A model generated the notes under the pieces. That model worked only from the letters and a program-made list of their open reading frames with translations. It made no database searches and had not been told where the DNA came from. Source: Ruminococcus bicirculans (ex Wegman et al. 2014) (GTDB lineage Bacteria; Bacillota; Clostridia; Oscillospirales; Ruminococcaceae). From it: 64,000 nucleotides of DNA. The stretch's first letter is position 1; each line of letters starts with the position of its first letter. The translations under genes and the position numbers were made by a program. This document shows, one piece after another, positions 51,632-61,524 of the stretch. The stretch is taken from positions 558,001 to 622,000 of the forward strand of contig NZ_HF545617.1 in NCBI RefSeq assembly GCF_000723465.1, in the 5' to 3' direction.

Positions 51632-51829
51632 CTACACGCCCGTTTTAAGGGTTTTCTCTTTCAAGTGTGAAATTATCCTAAGAATTATTTCAAAACGTGC
51701 TATAACGCCGTTAAACGCCGCTAAAATGAAATCAAATAGCAATGCTTCGCCATTCGGATATTTTTGTTTCAAAATTCCGTTGATGTCCGGCGCTATGTAA
51801 TCTGAGCTTAAGCGCAGGGGACGAATCAA
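51632..51829 (-). CDS. small hypothetical phage protein
   Basis: 65 residues from a TTG at 51829, 15 bases after the NusG-like gene; the ribosome site is weak. Begins MIRPLRLSSDYIAPDINGIL and has an amphipathic helix (GEALLFDFILAAFNGVIARF). Coding-like, but no family recognised. Confidence 0.45.
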   Translation of the reverse strand: MIRPLRLSSDYIAPDINGILKQKYPNGEALLFDFILAAFNGVIARFEIILRIISHLKEKTLKTGV

Positions 51830-51843
51830 CCTTACGCTTATGA

Positions 51844-55838: not shown

Positions 55839-56762
55839 TTATACCGCCATATCCATATATTTAGCGATTGCAGACAATCCCTTGGCGGTCACATTGCCGT
55901 TATCGAGGGCGTTGGAGTATAGATTGACCGCTCCTCTGATAGCCTGTGGACTTTGAGCGATACGCAGTAAAAATTCAACAGCAGCAGCGTCCTCTCTGAT
56001 ATCCGGAAAGAGCATTTCGATGTCGCTCTTCTTTATCTGCTTAACGCTGTAAAACCGGGTATTCTTCGTCCTGTTGCGTATCTGTGCAAACTCCGCTTTC
56101 TGCTTTCCGCCAAGTCTGCTTACCGTGGTCTCGTTGCCGACAAAGCATATTCCAAGGGTCTGTCCCTTTTCGTCAAAGCAGTCGCAAAGGCTTCGGAGAG
56201 TATCAATGGCATTTCTGGTGAGATGCTGGGCTTCGTCCACGATTATCACCATGCCGTCCGAAAGCTTTGACGAGATTTCCAACCAGAGTCTGCTCACAGA
56301 GCCGGAGGATACGTTCAGCTTAGAACCGATAAGTTCCAGCACGGATTTTGATGACTTGATGCACGGATTTACCGTTATGTATGTACAGTTTGTGCCGTGC
56401 TCACGGTAATACTGCCTGCAAGCCTGTGTTTTGCCTATACCTGCGTCACCGCAGGCTATGGCAAGACCGCCCTGAAGCTGACAGTTACGTATGATCTTGT
56501 ACACGTTAGACGATATTGACGTTTCCTTATAGTCTGTGCCGACATAGATTTCAGCTGCAGCCTGCTTGGTTTCAAAGTATTCAATTACTTTTTTCATCTG
56601 CTTATCTACATCGCCGTTGTAGGTACCTGACTTAATTGCAGAGTATGAGCTATCGGATATACCAATCTTTTTGCAGACTGCAGCCGCAGATAGATTTTCC
56701 GAGTACTGCAGCTGTTTTATCTGTTCCAATGCCCACTCCTGTTTAGCTGTTAGCTTTTTCAT
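55839..56762 (-). CDS. MuB-like transposition ATPase
   Basis: 307 residues, ATG 56762, three bases after the transposase stop. N-terminal helix-turn-helix (1-60, ICKKIGISDSSYSAI-like), AAA+ ATPase with Walker A GDAGIGKT (105-112) and Walker B VIIVDEAQH with D176 and E177, sensor residues in FVGNETTVSRL. Binds target DNA as an ATP-dependent filament and delivers it to the transposase; gives immunity to self-insertion. Length close to MuB (312). Confidence 0.92.
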   Translation of the reverse strand: MKKLTAKQEWALEQIKQLQYSENLSAAAVCKKIGISDSSYSAIKSGTYNGDVDKQMKKVIEYFETKQAAAEIYVGTDYKETSISSNVYKIIRNCQLQGGLAIACGDAGIGKTQACRQYYREHGTNCTYITVNPCIKSSKSVLELIGSKLNVSSGSVSRLWLEISSKLSDGMVIIVDEAQHLTRNAIDTLRSLCDCFDEKGQTLGICFVGNETTVSRLGGKQKAEFAQIRNRTKNTRFYSVKQIKKSDIEMLFPDIREDAAAVEFLLRIAQSPQAIRGAVNLYSNALDNGNVTAKGLSAIAKYMDMAV

Positions 56763-56765
56763 TTA

Positions 56766-58766
56766 TTAATCACTCCTCCATTTATTCTTCCGCCTCTCGG
56801 CGTTTTCGTTCATTTTATCTATATTGACCACAATATCGTCTCCGGAAGCCTTTGATATACTTTCCGGTTCATTATCAGCTCTTATCATAATCACATTGGA
56901 CGGCATAACGATCTTAAAGCTCTGCTTACCATGTGCTGCCTTGAGAGCGGCAGCCTCCATAAGGTCGATCTTATGCTCTGAGTTTAAGCCATCTGTGATA
57001 TTCTGAGCCTCGGCTTTAATAAACCGTTGTACTCTGCGCTGTAAAGCCATTGCATCGGAAATCTCTTCCTTGCTTTCGGTGATGTAATCTATAAGCAGCT
57101 TGTCCGCACATTCCCAAGTCCAAAGGTAACGGTCCGATTTATCGTAAACCCTTACGCTTCTAAGATCGGCGGGATCGTATCTTACATAGACCTCCTCGCC
57201 CAGGTGACGGTAAGTGTTTTCATAGTCCATAAACCAGACCTTTTCGCCGGATATTTCAACAAATACGCCGTTGCGCTTGATCTTTTGCACCCTTGTTGAT
57301 CTCATAAGCATAAGATTAAGTTCGGCTTCCGGAGCTTTGCGTATTCCTACAGACTTTATATCCATATTCCATACGTCAATACGACTCATTCCTTTGTACT
57401 TTGTCTCAGCTCCGCCATATTCCTGCATATTAAAATCACCGTCAATATACATATCAATATATTCTCTAATCTCAAAGTCGCAGGGAATCTTGCCTTCTTT
57501 AATTCTACGCTTAAGGCTCTCAGGTCGCTGCATAATAGTGCCGCCGCAGTAACCTTCAAACATTCTTGCAAACTGCATTGTGACCGTGCTAAATGTACGC
57601 TCAATAGGCTTTGCTTTAGCGTTACGGACGATTGCGTTATGCATCGTGATTCCAAGCCTTTGGAGTATTGTCGGTGGTTCGATCTCAGGGTTATCGGTTT
57701 TCCTGCTTCGATGACCTTTTCCGCCAACGTCATGGGTCAAAAACTCTCGACCGTTATCAAAATATACGGCTTTCGGAATGCCAAACCGCATAATTCCATG
57801 CCTTAATGCGATGATTGTTGACTGGGAGTTCGGACTGTCGCATATATTCCAGCCGACCAGCACTCCGCTTTTGGCATCCAAAAAGGCTGTAAGGTACAGC
57901 CTGTGGATCGTGCCGTTATCTTCATCGTAGGACTGTATATCGAACGTGTGGTTATCTGCGATCCAGACGTCGTTAGCGTGGAGACCGTCGTACATACGGC
58001 TGATATATGGCAGGCATTTATCTTTCATAGCCTTATCGCCGTCGCGCATATATGTAAGCACGGCTTGTGGTATTTCCGACTTTATATGCCGCCTGAAAGT
58101 ATTGTCTGACGGGAAGTTTGATACCATTGACGGATACCACTCTTTTGCACATTCAAGCGTTAGGTCGTAACAACGCGAAACGGTAGGTTTGTTTTCGGAA
58201 AGATAGAAATAGCAAAACTGCTCCCACAGCTCCGGTGGGATACTGCTCTTACCCTTATTGGCTCCGCCTCGATTTTCACAAAGCCCCTGCAGATTATTAT
58301 TTCTGTAGGCTGCATACTTGCGGTATAGTATATCCACCGACACTTTGATATCATTATGCTCGAGCTGACACTTGCCGACGTAAAGCTTATCCACTTCGGT
58401 TTTCTTTCCGGGGTATTGATCCCGGTAACGCTGCCAGTCTCTGAGGATATCTACCCAGAGTGCGATTTCATCACGCTCATCTTCGGAAAACTCTTCGATT
58501 GACGTTTTCACAGGCTTTTTGGGCTGTTTTAACGCATTTTTAACAGGCTGTGCAACAAGTTCTAAGCCCGCTTCCGCTCTTTTCTGAGCATAGTATTTTG
58601 CCTGCAGGCCTTCGGGGAGTGATGATATTGGGATCATATATTTAGGACGGTTCCTGTCGTTGATTTCGATATTGCATGACAATTTTCCGTCCTTGCACAG
58701 TTTCTTTATATATCGTTCACTGCAGCCTTTAAGATCAGCAGTTTTGGCAACCGTCAAATATTCCAC
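56766..58766 (-). CDS. MuA-like DDE transposase
   Basis: 666 residues; start GTG 58766 behind GGGAGGTGATGAT. N-terminal winged-helix end-binding domain (1-90), then helix domains, catalytic core with D271 (WIADNHTF), D337 (VYFDNGRE) and E389 (KPIERTFS); spacing almost equal to MuA (D269, D336, E392). A C-terminal beta-barrel and a basic tail that contacts MuB follow. Cuts and joins the phage ends described at 32064 and 62001. Appears intact. Confidence 0.95.
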   Translation of the reverse strand: MEYLTVAKTADLKGCSERYIKKLCKDGKLSCNIEINDRNRPKYMIPISSLPEGLQAKYYAQKRAEAGLELVAQPVKNALKQPKKPVKTSIEEFSEDERDEIALWVDILRDWQRYRDQYPGKKTEVDKLYVGKCQLEHNDIKVSVDILYRKYAAYRNNNLQGLCENRGGANKGKSSIPPELWEQFCYFYLSENKPTVSRCYDLTLECAKEWYPSMVSNFPSDNTFRRHIKSEIPQAVLTYMRDGDKAMKDKCLPYISRMYDGLHANDVWIADNHTFDIQSYDEDNGTIHRLYLTAFLDAKSGVLVGWNICDSPNSQSTIIALRHGIMRFGIPKAVYFDNGREFLTHDVGGKGHRSRKTDNPEIEPPTILQRLGITMHNAIVRNAKAKPIERTFSTVTMQFARMFEGYCGGTIMQRPESLKRRIKEGKIPCDFEIREYIDMYIDGDFNMQEYGGAETKYKGMSRIDVWNMDIKSVGIRKAPEAELNLMLMRSTRVQKIKRNGVFVEISGEKVWFMDYENTYRHLGEEVYVRYDPADLRSVRVYDKSDRYLWTWECADKLLIDYITESKEEISDAMALQRRVQRFIKAEAQNITDGLNSEHKIDLMEAAALKAAHGKQSFKIVMPSNVIMIRADNEPESISKASGDDIVVNIDKMNENAERRKNKWRSD

Positions 58767-58814
58767 ATCATCACCTCCCGAAGTTACTTGACAAAACTAA
58801 TGTTTTCTGATATA

Positions 58815-59018
58815 CTAAGTATCAGAGCCAGAACGGTTGTTTACGAGGTCGGACAGAAAATCTTCTGTTTCGGTCAATACTGCAAGAATGGTCGCAACAT
58901 TCCTGCGGAGCTGTTCAGGCTCTATTTTTATGTCCTCAAGGCAGCTTGCCTGAGCCAGAAGCCGGGCTTGTCCCACCGCATGAGACAGTACTTGTGTTTT
59001 AAATTCCTTGTATTTCAT
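58815..59018 (-). CDS. small hypothetical early protein
   Basis: 67 residues; ATG 59018 with AAAGGAAG. Helical, begins MKYKEFKTQVLSHAVGQARL and includes IEPEQLRRNVATILAVLTE. Unrecognised. Translation starts just after the downstream copy of the 41-base structured module, so it may be controlled by it. Confidence 0.6.
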   Translation of the reverse strand: MKYKEFKTQVLSHAVGQARLLAQASCLEDIKIEPEQLRRNVATILAVLTETEDFLSDLVNNRSGSDT

Positions 59019-59037
59019 TGGTTACACTTCCTTTCTC

Positions 59038-59078
59038 GGTCTGCCATCATCAGTACCGGGAGACCGTCCCCGGCAGAC
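59038..59078 (-). repeat. 41-bp structured module, copy 1
   Basis: Identical to 59694-59734 over 41 bases. On the RNA it can form GTCTGCC/GGCAGAC with an inner CCGGG-type stem. Each copy is preceded by a hairpin beginning CCGAAAC (59104-59077 and 59762-59734). This copy directly precedes the ribosome site of the 67-residue gene. Confidence 0.85.
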
Positions 59079-59693
59079 CGAACCGCCTGTTGCGGCTCGG
59101 TTTCGGCTAGAAAAATCGGAATGTATAAGTCTACTCCTTCCGAAAGAGTACCCTGCGCACTTATACTGCGTTGCACAACCTTGTCGACTAGGTTGATTGA
59201 GTTGGCTTTCACATCAGGACTTGCACCTGATAGGCTTACGCTTGCGAACCTAGCACCATGCGTGAACATTTAGCCGCCCCGATTATTACCGAAACGGCAA
59301 GGTAGATAGGATAAAAAGTTATCCTAAGTGGGTCTGATACGCTCAGACGGGCGGTATCTTTATGTTGTCTTTAGACTGTGTTATAAAAATACAAAAAACG
59401 TTCCAGCTGGTGCAAACATTAAGCTCATGCGCTCTCAGCTTGCATTTACGAGTTCGCACCTTAAGGAAAGTCGGAACCCTTATAACAAAACCTGTACCTC
59501 GGCTAATTCAACCCGACGACACGTAGCCAGAACACGTGGTTTTTAAGTCATACGCTACCGATATTTTATGTCCTCGGTTTACAGACTGTATGACAGGCTT
59601 GGTTCAAGATCTAAGTCGTTACCTCTGAGCTTGCAAGCTGCAGGTGATTCACTATATCCCCTATGGCGGGCAAGCACGGCACCTGCATATTTT

Positions 59694-59734
59694 GGTCTGC
59701 CATCATCAGTACCGGGAGACCGTCCCCGGCAGAC
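59694..59734 (-). repeat. 41-bp structured module, copy 2
   Basis: Identical to 59038-59078, 656 bases away; lies just after the stop of the Ner-like gene at 59742. The two copies bracket the structured RNA, as processing signals or traces of insertion of the segment. Confidence 0.85.
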
Positions 59735-59741
59735 AGCCGAG

Positions 59742-59969
59742 TTACTGTCGGCTGTTTCGGCTGTTTCGTGATCTGCCGCACAGATCGTCAAGACTGCATT
59801 GCAGCACATTGGCTATCCTGATCGTAGTCTTAAGAGAGGGCGTCAAAACGCCCTGCTCTATCTTGCACACGGTCACATTGCTGATCCCCGCATACTTAGC
59901 AAGCTCTCTCTGATTAAGATCACGCTGCTCTCTAATCTGCTTTATGCTTTTCCCAATATCTGCGCTCAT
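59742..59969 (-). CDS. Ner-like XRE regulator
   Basis: 75 residues; ATG 59969 has GGAGG ten bases upstream. Helix-turn-helix in residues 5-60 (IGKSIKQIREQRDLNQRELA, GISNVTVCKIEQG). Equivalent in position to the early regulator Ner of Mu, which limits early and repressor transcription. The Arg/Ser/Asn tail (RSRNSRNSRQ) is encoded by repeats that lead into the structured RNA. Overlaps the preceding gene by 38 bases. Confidence 0.8.
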   Translation of the reverse strand: MSADIGKSIKQIREQRDLNQRELAKYAGISNVTVCKIEQGVLTPSLKTTIRIANVLQCSLDDLCGRSRNSRNSRQ

Positions 59970-60165
59970 AAAGGCGTTCCCTCCTTTTAGCAAAGTATAT
60001 ATCTCTGATAAGAGAGAGGATAAGGTGCATACAGATCAATCCGGATAGTGTAAGCAACGGTATGATCCAGAACTCGGAATGTCCGCTAAGACTTGTTATG
60101 GCACACCATAGCATGATAATGGCAAACATGGTAAGCACCTTTCCCTCGTCCGTAAGTTTTTTCAT
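59932..60165 (-). CDS. small two-helix membrane protein
   Basis: 77 residues, ATG 60165 with AGGAGG. Hydrophobic segments at about 10-26 (VLTMFAIIMLWCAITSL) and 32-52 (FWIIPLLTLSGLICMHLIL), then a very basic tail (KRRERLYERRYWEKHK). Early expressed; may be a superinfection-exclusion or membrane-stress factor, by analogy only. Confidence 0.65.
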   Translation of the reverse strand: MKKLTDEGKVLTMFAIIMLWCAITSLSGHSEFWIIPLLTLSGLICMHLILSLIRDIYFAKRRERLYERRYWEKHKAD

Positions 60166-60177
60166 AATAAACCCTCC

Positions 60178-60630
60178 TTACTTATACATCATAACGGTGA
60201 TAACGTCTTTAGCGGCAGCAAGCGGACTGTCTCCTGTGATGCCTATATCATACACATGACCGTTCTTCATGGTTACAAGCACCCACTCTTCTCCGTTGTC
60301 TTCGCAGTAAGTTATATCATCAACATCATCATTGGCGGCATGGAGCAGGAAGTAGAGCTCTTTTTCTACGAATAAAGCTTTATTCATTATATATCCTCTT
60401 ATTGGCGGAGTTTGTTCCGCCCTTGTTTGCTGCTCGCCGTATTTTTCAGCTATGCAATCAAGATCATCATCTATTGCTGCCTTAGCATCCTCGATTGTAT
60501 TATAAGCCTTTGGCGAGAAAGCCCCGTAAGGTGATATGCAAACATAGCCTATCCTATCGTTACCTGATATCGTATAGCCTCTGTACTCATACATATTCAC
60601 ATCGGTTTCCTTAATCTTATACTTATTCAT
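60178..60630 (-). CDS. first early gene, hypothetical
   Basis: 150 residues; ATG 60630 with AAAGGAGG. Two similar-size halves: YRGYTISGNDRIGYVCISPY and EWVLVTMKNGHVYDIGITGD, each followed by helices. Acidic. First gene after the early promoter and operator; the untranslated leader of about 90 bases contains two inverted repeats (GGGTAAC...GTTACCC and GTTTAAC...GTTAAAC). Unknown function. Confidence 0.65.
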   Translation of the reverse strand: MNKYKIKETDVNMYEYRGYTISGNDRIGYVCISPYGAFSPKAYNTIEDAKAAIDDDLDCIAEKYGEQQTRAEQTPPIRGYIMNKALFVEKELYFLLHAANDDVDDITYCEDNGEEWVLVTMKNGHVYDIGITGDSPLAAAKDVITVMMYK

Positions 60631-60725
60631 TAAAATTCCTCCTTTTTCGATTGACGTTTAACGCTTTTTGTGTTAAACTTAATTTATCATGGGGTAACTA
60701 TGCCCTAGAGGTTACCCTATAGTAA

Positions 60726-60754
60726 ATTATAACTAGATTTTTTCTAATTGCCAA
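60726..60754 (-). promoter_or_regulatory. phage early promoter
   Basis: Minus strand TTGGCA (60754-60749), 17-base spacer, TATAAT (60731-60726). Faces the early operon. Confidence 0.85.
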
Positions 60755-60779
60755 GTGAAATTCTAACTCGAAATTAGAA
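60742..60779. promoter_or_regulatory. repressor operator cluster
   Basis: TTCTAA at 60742-60747 and an inverted pair TTCTAA (60761-60766) / TTAGAA (60774-60779), separated by seven bases. They overlap the -35 and spacer of the early promoter and lie before the divergent repressor gene. Binding here would block early transcription. Confidence 0.6.
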
Positions 60780-60822
60780 AAACGCTAATTTTGTGATAAG
60801 TAACAAAGGAGATGATTGAATT

Positions 60823-61524
60823 TTGGATATTTTGGATAGAATAACTATGCTTTTAGGCAATCGAGAGCAAAAAGAATTGACTAATTACCTGAAATTAAAT
60901 AATGTTGCTTTTTCAGAATGGAAGTCTGGGAAAAGCAAATCATATAGAAAATATCTAATTGAAATTGCTGAATTTTTTGATGTTTCAATAGATTACCTTG
61001 TTTACGGCAAAGAAAAAAGCTCACTAGCGGAACAGTTGACCGCTGATGAGCAGGAGTTACTTACATATTATAAGGAATTAGATTTAATGAAAAAGGGTCA
61101 AGTCCTCGAACGTGCCAAGGTCCTTTTTGAGCAGTCAAAAATACCATTAAAAGAGCTTGAAAACAGTGTTTTCATAGAGTACTATTCGTTGCCTGTCAGT
61201 GCCGGAACTGGCGTTGATCTGGATGGCTGCGAAAAAGGTATGTTGGAGGTTAAGAAAACGCAGCTCACTCTTGAGGCTAATTTTGCTCTAAGAGTGTCTG
61301 GCAACAGCATGGAGCCTGTATTCCACGACGGAGACGTAGTTCTGATAGCCTCGCAGCCATCTGTTGAGATCGGCGAGATAGGCATTTTTATACTTAACGG
61401 GGAAGGATTTATAAAGAAGTTCGGCGGAGATCGCTTGATTTCCCTTAACCCGGATTATGATGATATTCCGCTGCATGATTATGATAGTATCTATTGCCGG
61501 GGAAAGGTTATTGGAACTGTATGA
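60823..61524 (+). CDS. LexA/CI-type autocleaving phage repressor
   Basis: 233 residues from TTG 60823 (AAAGGAG upstream). XRE-like DNA-binding domain (1-65) with FSEWKSGKSKSYRKY; the S24 peptidase domain has the cleavage site A127-G128 (VSAGTG), S162 (GNSMEP) and K198 or K199 (FIKKF), spacing equal to LexA. RecA-stimulated self-cleavage would induce the phage. Divergent from the early operon across a 192-base operator region. Only phage gene besides the moron on the plus strand. Confidence 0.93.
   Translation: MDILDRITMLLGNREQKELTNYLKLNNVAFSEWKSGKSKSYRKYLIEIAEFFDVSIDYLVYGKEKSSLAEQLTADEQELLTYYKELDLMKKGQVLERAKVLFEQSKIPLKELENSVFIEYYSLPVSAGTGVDLDGCEKGMLEVKKTQLTLEANFALRVSGNSMEPVFHDGDVVLIASQPSVEIGEIGIFILNGEGFIKKFGGDRLISLNPDYDDIPLHDYDSIYCRGKVIGTV

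Follow-up and report, generated by a model that had tools for sequence, protein, structure and literature searches.

The 64,000-nt window analysed here comes from a gut bacterium and carries a Mu-like prophage, the early region of which holds a structured RNA stretch on the minus strand. Following that strand from the S24-type repressor gene, two small open reading frames (ORFs) and a helix-turn-helix (HTH) gene precede the RNA stretch, and a 67-aa ORF, the MuA transposase gene and the gene for a MuB-like ATPase come after it. A scan of the whole window at the curated Rfam cut-offs finds a minus-strand type II hammerhead ribozyme at each border of the stretch. What lies between these ribozymes, within the transposition operon, is a real, partly conserved non-coding RNA; the ribozyme frame is a variant of something known, while the RNA is a candidate new family. 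All coordinates are positions in the window, and L-numbers denote comparison loci fetched for the analysis. The features of the stretch are as follows.

59691..59762, minus strand: type II hammerhead A (upstream), RF02276, 63.0 bits (gathering score 37), E = 1.1e-10
59035..59108, minus strand: type II hammerhead B (downstream), RF02276, 57.7 bits (gathering score 37)
59694..59734, minus strand: 41-nt exact direct repeat, copy 1, with stem-loop I, core and downstream bases of hammerhead A
59038..59078, minus strand: 41-nt exact direct repeat, copy 2, in hammerhead B
59076..59731, minus strand: predicted excised RNA, 656 nt, with 5'-OH and 2',3'-cyclic phosphate, as deduced from the cut sites
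59109..59690, minus strand: non-coding interior, 582 nt, containing no ORF with a Shine-Dalgarno sequence; 98.6% identical in MT835795.1

The catalytic cores of both hammerheads are intact in the Rfam alignment (CUGAUGA / GAAA / GUC). Alignments and a structural finder give each copy the elements that define RF02276, namely CUGANGA, GAAA, a triplet ending in H, closed stems I and III and an open stem II, and these are the sole two type II matches in the host genome at E values up to 0.001. Their stems III differ. The arrangement is that of clustered prophage hammerheads, the operon having two neighbouring copies on its transcript strand. Cleavage by a hammerhead takes place 3' of the GUC, which predicts cuts between 59732 and 59731 in hammerhead A and between 59076 and 59075 in hammerhead B. 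Cutting at both places would therefore release the 656-nt RNA from the early transcript, its 5' part being made up of stem-loop I and CUGAUGA and its 3' part of GAAA, stem III and GUC. Since the two ends together contain one complete hammerhead, closure into a ring is possible. A preliminary description of this DNA had set the limits of the element at 59038-59754; these nearly coincide with the 41-base repeats (59734-59694 and 59078-59038), and the paired self-cleaving ribozymes that define the element had been missed.

The same description held that some 700 bases between the Ner-like gene (the HTH gene mentioned above) and MuA lack a credible protein, and this is borne out. Neither strand of the hammerhead-bounded interval has an ORF that reaches 35 aa and has a Shine-Dalgarno sequence, and alignment of the homologous interior part with that of L050, introduced below, contains single-base insertions and deletions, so that any reading frame is broken. 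A permissive Rfam scan of 58000-60500 (4227 models, E up to 10) returned just the two hammerheads and two matches far below cut-off. Membership in ROOL, GOLLD, HEARO or OLE, the families named earlier for comparison, is therefore not supported: none of the four matches anywhere in the window at gathering score or in 58000-60500 at E up to 10, and the L050 version of the RNA has no Rfam match to HEARO or OLE. A group I or group II intron was likewise rejected for want of an Rfam match to the interior. The repeats of VIPR vrRNAs, 9-16 YNNGG units according to PMC13142463, were looked for and rejected, since the sense strand has no YNNGG run of at least two units and the antisense strand has one run of two.

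Comparison with related phages carries the case for the RNA. The nearest relative, MT835795.1 (L057), a phage record from human faeces, matches the whole 741-nt query at 98.7% identity and the interior at the 98.6% already given. An independent phage contig, IMGVR_UViG_3300010163_001853 (L050), has a MuA that is 88% identical and matches the interior over 88 nt at 81% identity and again over its last 160 nt at 86%; the 5' part of the window RNA is not common to it. The conserved 3' domain, here called W, contains the following elements.

59116..59269, minus strand: domain W, identical to L050 at 134 of 153 positions (88%)
59252-59231, minus strand: hairpin with one compensatory pair
59230-59214, minus strand: hairpin, T-loop-like
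59195-59176, minus strand: hairpin with two compensatory pairs
59166-59123, minus strand: nested arm with one compensatory pair

The 88% identity of W may be set against 45% (97 of 215) at the fourfold sites of MuA in the same two phages. Four of the 37 pairs in W are compensatory and none has a one-sided change, the eight differences at paired positions making up exactly those four. From the alignment alone, RNAalifold draws the same six W helices, one of them with another inner end, and one more; its 45-pair version has the same four compensatory pairs and one one-sided change. All 111 cells of the W structure are paired, as against 25-49% when the partners are slid, in a comparison of three rows of which two are near-copies and which amounts to one independent comparison. 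The structures used in the pairing tests, for W and for the modules X and Z described next, were drawn after seeing the sequences. Four other matches (L141-L144), at no more than 17.5 bits with E up to 1, emerged from a search of 297 host-family genomes with a model of W (R1) and were rejected, three of them aligning mainly at tRNA-like T-arms. L044, L045 and L064, which were weak blast matches, and L109 were judged unrelated by eye.

Two modules of the RNA recur in more distant phages.

59547..59594, minus strand: helix XA, GUCAUAC (59594-59588) / GUAUGAC (59553-59547), first part of module X
59496..59547, minus strand: module X core, found also between tRNA genes in the phage tRNA arrays L068 and L073
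59332..59348, minus strand: module Z hairpin GUCUGA-GCGUA-UCAGAC, with flanks CCGCCC / CCA

Module X as a whole spans 59594-59496. Its helix XA, which was not part of any search pattern, is paired in 25 of 25 cells across the window, L050, L067, L068 and L073, with changes on both sides in all five pairs, and has a pair probability of 0.93-0.94 in the window RNA. Strands pair as well in 2 of 120 permutations, the number expected because L050 and L067 have identical strands. L068 (MT835520.1) came from the phage collection, where its module X match has E = 0.04, and L073 from a pattern search; their module X regions are 90% alike. The pattern search yielded 40 loci, of which L066 (on the same contig as L050) and L073 were kept and 38, lacking the GAAACC-like flank, were dropped; L068 carries the same pattern. 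Matches to a further model, R2, in 68 of 295 genomes of the order besides the host's own were taken as noise, at 24 bits or less against 66.5.

Module Z is known in five copies from three loci, with 29 of 30 cells paired and both-side changes in 3 of 6 pairs, figures to be read in the light of a search pattern that fixed the inner three helix pairs, was suggested by the window and the two copies (a and b) of L067, and left the second copy of L069 to be found by eye. Here 4 of 120 permutations pair as well, repeated strands accounting for the number. L067 (MT835475.1; E = 7e-5 in the full phage collection) is a phage whose MuA is 50% identical to that of the window. An HTH gene and a 58-aa ORF are followed there by module Z, module X, a second module Z and a hammerhead at 35.4 bits, just under the cut-off; the L067 RNA thus lies where the window RNA does.

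The tRNA arrays deserve description in their own right. By eye, those of L068 (2650-3822), L073 (6712-8314) and L062 (370-1182) have long spacers with shortened tRNA-like pieces between the tRNA genes, and an HU-like gene, also recognised by eye, follows the arrays of L068 and L073. Some of the spacers share modules with the window RNA or with L050. Apart from tRNA, neither L062 nor L068 has an Rfam match over cut-off. A module Y, at L050 1493-1543, L062 487-537 and L063 1574-1523 (minus strand), is made of two interleaved helices forming a pseudoknot, with compensatory changes in the three loci and one mismatch, and has no Rfam match over cut-off; it is not present in the window and carries no weight for the window RNA. 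L069 has two module Z hairpins (95-276), which lie some 500-670 nt before a short reading frame that starts at 769 and resembles the beginning of an IscB protein. The recurrence of one module of the window RNA in phage tRNA arrays is a hint that, besides ROOL and GOLLD, phages carry a larger range of structured RNAs that have yet to be described.

Folding by itself does not carry the case. On the sense strand the 582-nt interior folds with z = -2.0, a level that 2 of 60 shuffles reach, and on the opposite strand with z = -1.3 (7 of 60). Over 84 equal-size tiles of the window the mean z is -1.56 (standard deviation 1.44), and the lowest tile is the neighbouring 58501-59082 (z = -5.7), not the interior. 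A 661-nt fold reaches z = -5.3 (20 shuffles), but includes hammerhead sequence at both ends. Much of the fold that the preliminary description drew from the single sequence lacks support: the multi-branch unit said to be closed by 59354-59349/59279-59274 has pair probabilities of 0.04-0.06, and the change 59278 G to A in L057 disrupts one of its pairs. The nested arm at 59166-59123 (GUAUAAGU/ACUUAUAC) fares better, gaining one A-U to G-C compensatory change in L050, with a pair probability of 0.05. Compensatory change was seen in this arm, in two W hairpins and in two helices of the shared modules. With the absence of an ORF, the conserved 3' domain and the Pfam-recognised MuA, MuB and HTH neighbours, these compensatory changes support the earlier claim of a large structured non-coding RNA in a Mu-like prophage; the observation is thus partly confirmed and its interpretation partly supported.

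The surrounding genes and the putative promoter of the operon are listed next.

60823-61521, plus strand: S24-type repressor
60726..60754, minus strand: possible early promoter, TTGGCA-17-TATAAT, a consensus match only
59742..59993, minus strand: Ner-like HTH gene (Pfam HTH_3, E = 6.4e-15; ORF list)
58815..59018, minus strand: 67-aa ORF directly after hammerhead B (ORF list)
56766..58766, minus strand: MuA-like transposase (Pfam HTH_Tnp_Mu_2 and Mu-transpos_C)
55839..56762, minus strand: MuB-like AAA ATPase (Pfam AAA_22; MuB by position)

The name 'Ner-like' comes from position, with no family match behind it; the 3' end of this gene overlaps hammerhead A. The 67-aa ORF (59018-58815) has no Pfam match and is present too in L053, with one hammerhead, and in L050, with three. 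The candidate promoter (60754-60726) points toward ner, the RNA and MuA and matches the consensus at 11/12 positions; promoter-like sites number 8 in all, against 4.7 in shuffled sequence.

The hammerhead before MuA is a feature of the whole phage group. Thirty loci were fetched from viral contigs by MuA alone, three of which could not be assessed, their MuA start lying outside the locus; some are the same phages as L050, L051 and L053. A type II hammerhead core lies no more than 620 nt upstream of MuA, on the same strand, in 26 of the 27 assessable loci, as against 0 of 27 in both the downstream and the reverse-strand control. The core nearest to MuA is 76-101 nt away in 19 loci and 232-355 nt away in 7, L130 having none. 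At the Rfam gathering level, a hammerhead is present upstream of MuA in all six close relatives, of which L051 and L056 are one phage, and in 11 of 13 others scanned, with L117 and L131 falling short. Among the 297 host-family genomes, 27, the host's own included, have a type II hammerhead (E up to 0.001).

The number of hammerheads upstream of MuA varies from one to three among relatives. A single copy and no cassette are seen in L053, L055 and L056, which may be regarded as empty sites; in L053 the HTH gene passes through the hammerhead directly into the 67-aa ORF and MuA. The cassette of the window is therefore an insertion bounded by a hammerhead repeat or, alternatively, its absence elsewhere is a loss by recombination between repeats. 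Cargo was compared over 28 intervals between hammerheads, one of them spanning MuA and MuB, in 19 loci that have several copies; six further loci with at least two cores were left out, namely L057 (a near-copy), L115 and L120 (second core beyond MuA), L116, L127 and L190. A sense ORF with a Shine-Dalgarno sequence is found in 26 of the 28, starting 13-48 nt after the hammerhead in 23. The exceptions are L125, where there is an antisense ORF only, and the window, the sole interval without an ORF on either strand. In L050 the RNA and a NUMOD4-containing gene share one hammerhead interval. The window is thus a case of RNA alone as cargo. Separately, antisense ORFs occur in intervals of L050 (1956-2434), L054 (4690-5161) and L125 (2864-3202), where an excised sense RNA would be antisense to the message of the gene.

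The explanation that we favour, with a probability of roughly 0.6, is that the window encodes a hammerhead-excised, structured non-coding phage RNA that acts in trans and is carried as an exchangeable cassette before MuA. Type II hammerheads punctuate the early operon in these transposable phages. Nearly every member examined has one upstream of MuA, and additional copies enclose cargo segments at this position; the cargo of the window is a structured non-coding RNA in place of a gene. A transcript from the early promoter would run through ner, the RNA and MuA. Both hammerheads, to judge from their intact catalytic cores, would then cut, leaving MuA with a separate mRNA and freeing the 656-nt RNA, which would carry a hammerhead stem-loop at either end. 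As the two ends could rebuild one hammerhead, ring closure of part of the RNA is possible. The free RNA, comprising a variable 5' part, a module shared with tRNA arrays and the conserved 3' domain, would presumably be a stable phage RNA with a role in trans. Recombination between repeated hammerheads is the probable route by which cassettes are acquired and lost, as the 41-nt repeats and the clean single-hammerhead relatives suggest. It is possible, and we offer it tentatively at less than even odds, that the RNA represents an undescribed family of large phage RNAs, hammerhead-excised, possibly circular, containing modules of tRNA-array spacers and borne as an exchangeable cassette alongside protein cargo.

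Several observations pull against the favoured explanation. Transcription, cleavage and the free RNA are all deduced from sequence, and the folding energy of the interior is ordinary. The arm at 59166-59123, though compensated, has the pair probability of just 0.05 already mentioned, and 8 of 500 letter shuffles of W equal the real pairing, a figure that with three rows gives little comfort. Compared with L057, 8 of 582 interior positions are changed and 3 of 249 fourfold sites in MuA, rates that are about equal; a recent move of the cassette could be what makes W look conserved. Searches recovered W in no genome other than the host's own (1 of 297 in the host family and 1 of 391 genomes), and three sequence patterns found it in no viral contig other than that of L050. 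The joint arrangement of X and W is known in two independent versions only, the window with L057 and L050. The hammerhead beside the L067 RNA has CCGAUGA for CUGAUGA and was missed by the structural finder.

Some of these same points speak for decayed cargo, an unlikely explanation that nevertheless survives best among the alternatives. It would have the interior as a former gene cassette, now a functionless spacer with remnants of phage RNA modules, in which the hammerheads merely separate the ner and MuA messages. The position of the L050 RNA after the NUMOD4-containing gene within one hammerhead interval would suit it, as would the ordinary folding energy, the rarity of the RNA, the absence of the 5' part from the L050 match and the apparently neutral change relative to L057. 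It does not sit well with a W domain that is 88% identical where MuA fourfold sites are at 45% and whose helices change only in compensatory fashion, or with module X at the same place in so distant a relative as L067.

Distinctly improbable is a cis-acting leader, the fold of which would set the amount of MuA through attenuation or by gating hammerhead B. Location favours the idea, the RNA standing directly before hammerhead B and the genes for the 67-aa ORF, MuA and MuB, with W ending in a U-run just before the ribozyme, and a possible alternative hairpin, UCGGAA/UUCCGA, can be drawn in the window and L050. However, a change in L057 (59141 G to A) disrupts one pair of that hairpin, the minus strand of 58600-61000 shows no terminator-like site, and in L050 another cassette and a third hammerhead come between the RNA and MuA; moreover, the close relatives L053, L055 and L056 manage without the RNA.

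A retrozyme-like mobile element, in which a hammerhead-circularised RNA is reverse-transcribed and inserted to leave direct repeats with a hammerhead at each end, is very improbable. Plant retrozymes are described as spreading via non-coding circular RNAs of 600-1000 nt (PMC6155905) and as having hammerheads (PMC6155905, PMC4918200); the 656-nt non-coding RNA with hammerheads in direct repeats is similar, but is single-copy and has type II rather than type III hammerheads. Retrozymes are dispersed in many copies, whereas the whole host genome has one copy of the RNA and two hammerheads, and on this ground the reading was rejected. Relatives have ordinary genes between hammerhead repeats at this position. 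The hammerhead before MuA did not arrive with such an element, since the phage group has it in common. Least tenable is a VIPR-type vrRNA or an RNA that guides a nuclease, for instance the NUMOD4/HNH-like protein of L050: the NUMOD4 gene, with its below-cut-off HNH_3 match, does adjoin the RNA in L050, and module Z copies precede the L069 frame that we presume to be IscB-like, but the ORF lists hold no such nuclease gene in the window cassette or beside the L067 RNA, HEARO gave no match, and YNNGG runs never exceed two units where vrRNAs have 9-16. A RAGATH-type RNA is described in PMC11061315 as guiding TnpB, which is the remaining point in its favour.

Hammerheads in Mu-like prophages are already known. 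Perreault et al. (2011; PMC3088659) found hammerheads flanking genes or short gene blocks in prophages, showed that three tandem arrangements cut in vitro, and proposed transcript processing or spliced or circular products, which were not detected there. The window resembles those prophages in having several hammerheads close together; what these enclose, at a conserved position ahead of MuA, differs in being a structured non-coding RNA that lacks an ORF. According to PMC10085705, it is with Mu-like phage genes that hammerheads and twisters of bacteria show their strongest association, the reason being given there as unknown; phage type and ribozyme class are the same here, and the place, number and cargo of the hammerheads are now resolved for one phage group. 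To the question of their clustering in such prophages this group contributes one hammerhead kept before MuA and extras bounding exchangeable cargo. The question thereby narrows to a few hundred bases, over which cutting may separate messages, free an RNA, or both, and non-coding cargo is the clearest case because the RNA itself is the only likely product. Among the literature matches listed, from a search that omits most subscription journals, there was no hammerhead-bounded non-coding RNA in a transposable phage.

As regards large phage RNAs, PMC12286853 gives 659 nt for ROOL and a tRNA-island context for both ROOL and GOLLD. The window RNA is similar to ROOL in being a phage or prophage RNA of about 650 nt with kinship to tRNA islands, and to GOLLD, often found near phage tRNA islands, in having a conserved 3' part and a less conserved 5' part. 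Unlike either, it is hammerhead-bounded and has no Rfam match; it also lies in an early transposition operon, in contrast to ROOL, and is smaller than many GOLLDs, which exceed 800 nt. By analogy, the comparison suggests a self-standing structural RNA, though kinship with either family was sought and not found.

Two other conserved elements were seen in this phage group. Between MuA and the 67-aa ORF, on the plus strand at 58788-58816, a promoter-like TTGACA-17-TATACT faces against the early operon, toward the S24 repressor gene, and would yield antisense RNA across the hammerhead cassette. Both hexamers and their spacing are preserved exactly in all seven loci checked (the window, L050, L053, L054, L055, L056 and L057), with a diverging spacer in L056. 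We take the layout to resemble that of lambda PRE. A RAGATH-28 RNA at 51744-51835 on the minus strand (46.9 bits, cut-off 45.3) is a second conserved RNA of the group, being found also 6.9-7.7 kb downstream of the MuA start in five of the six relatives scanned (L050, L051, L053, L054 and L056, but not L055).
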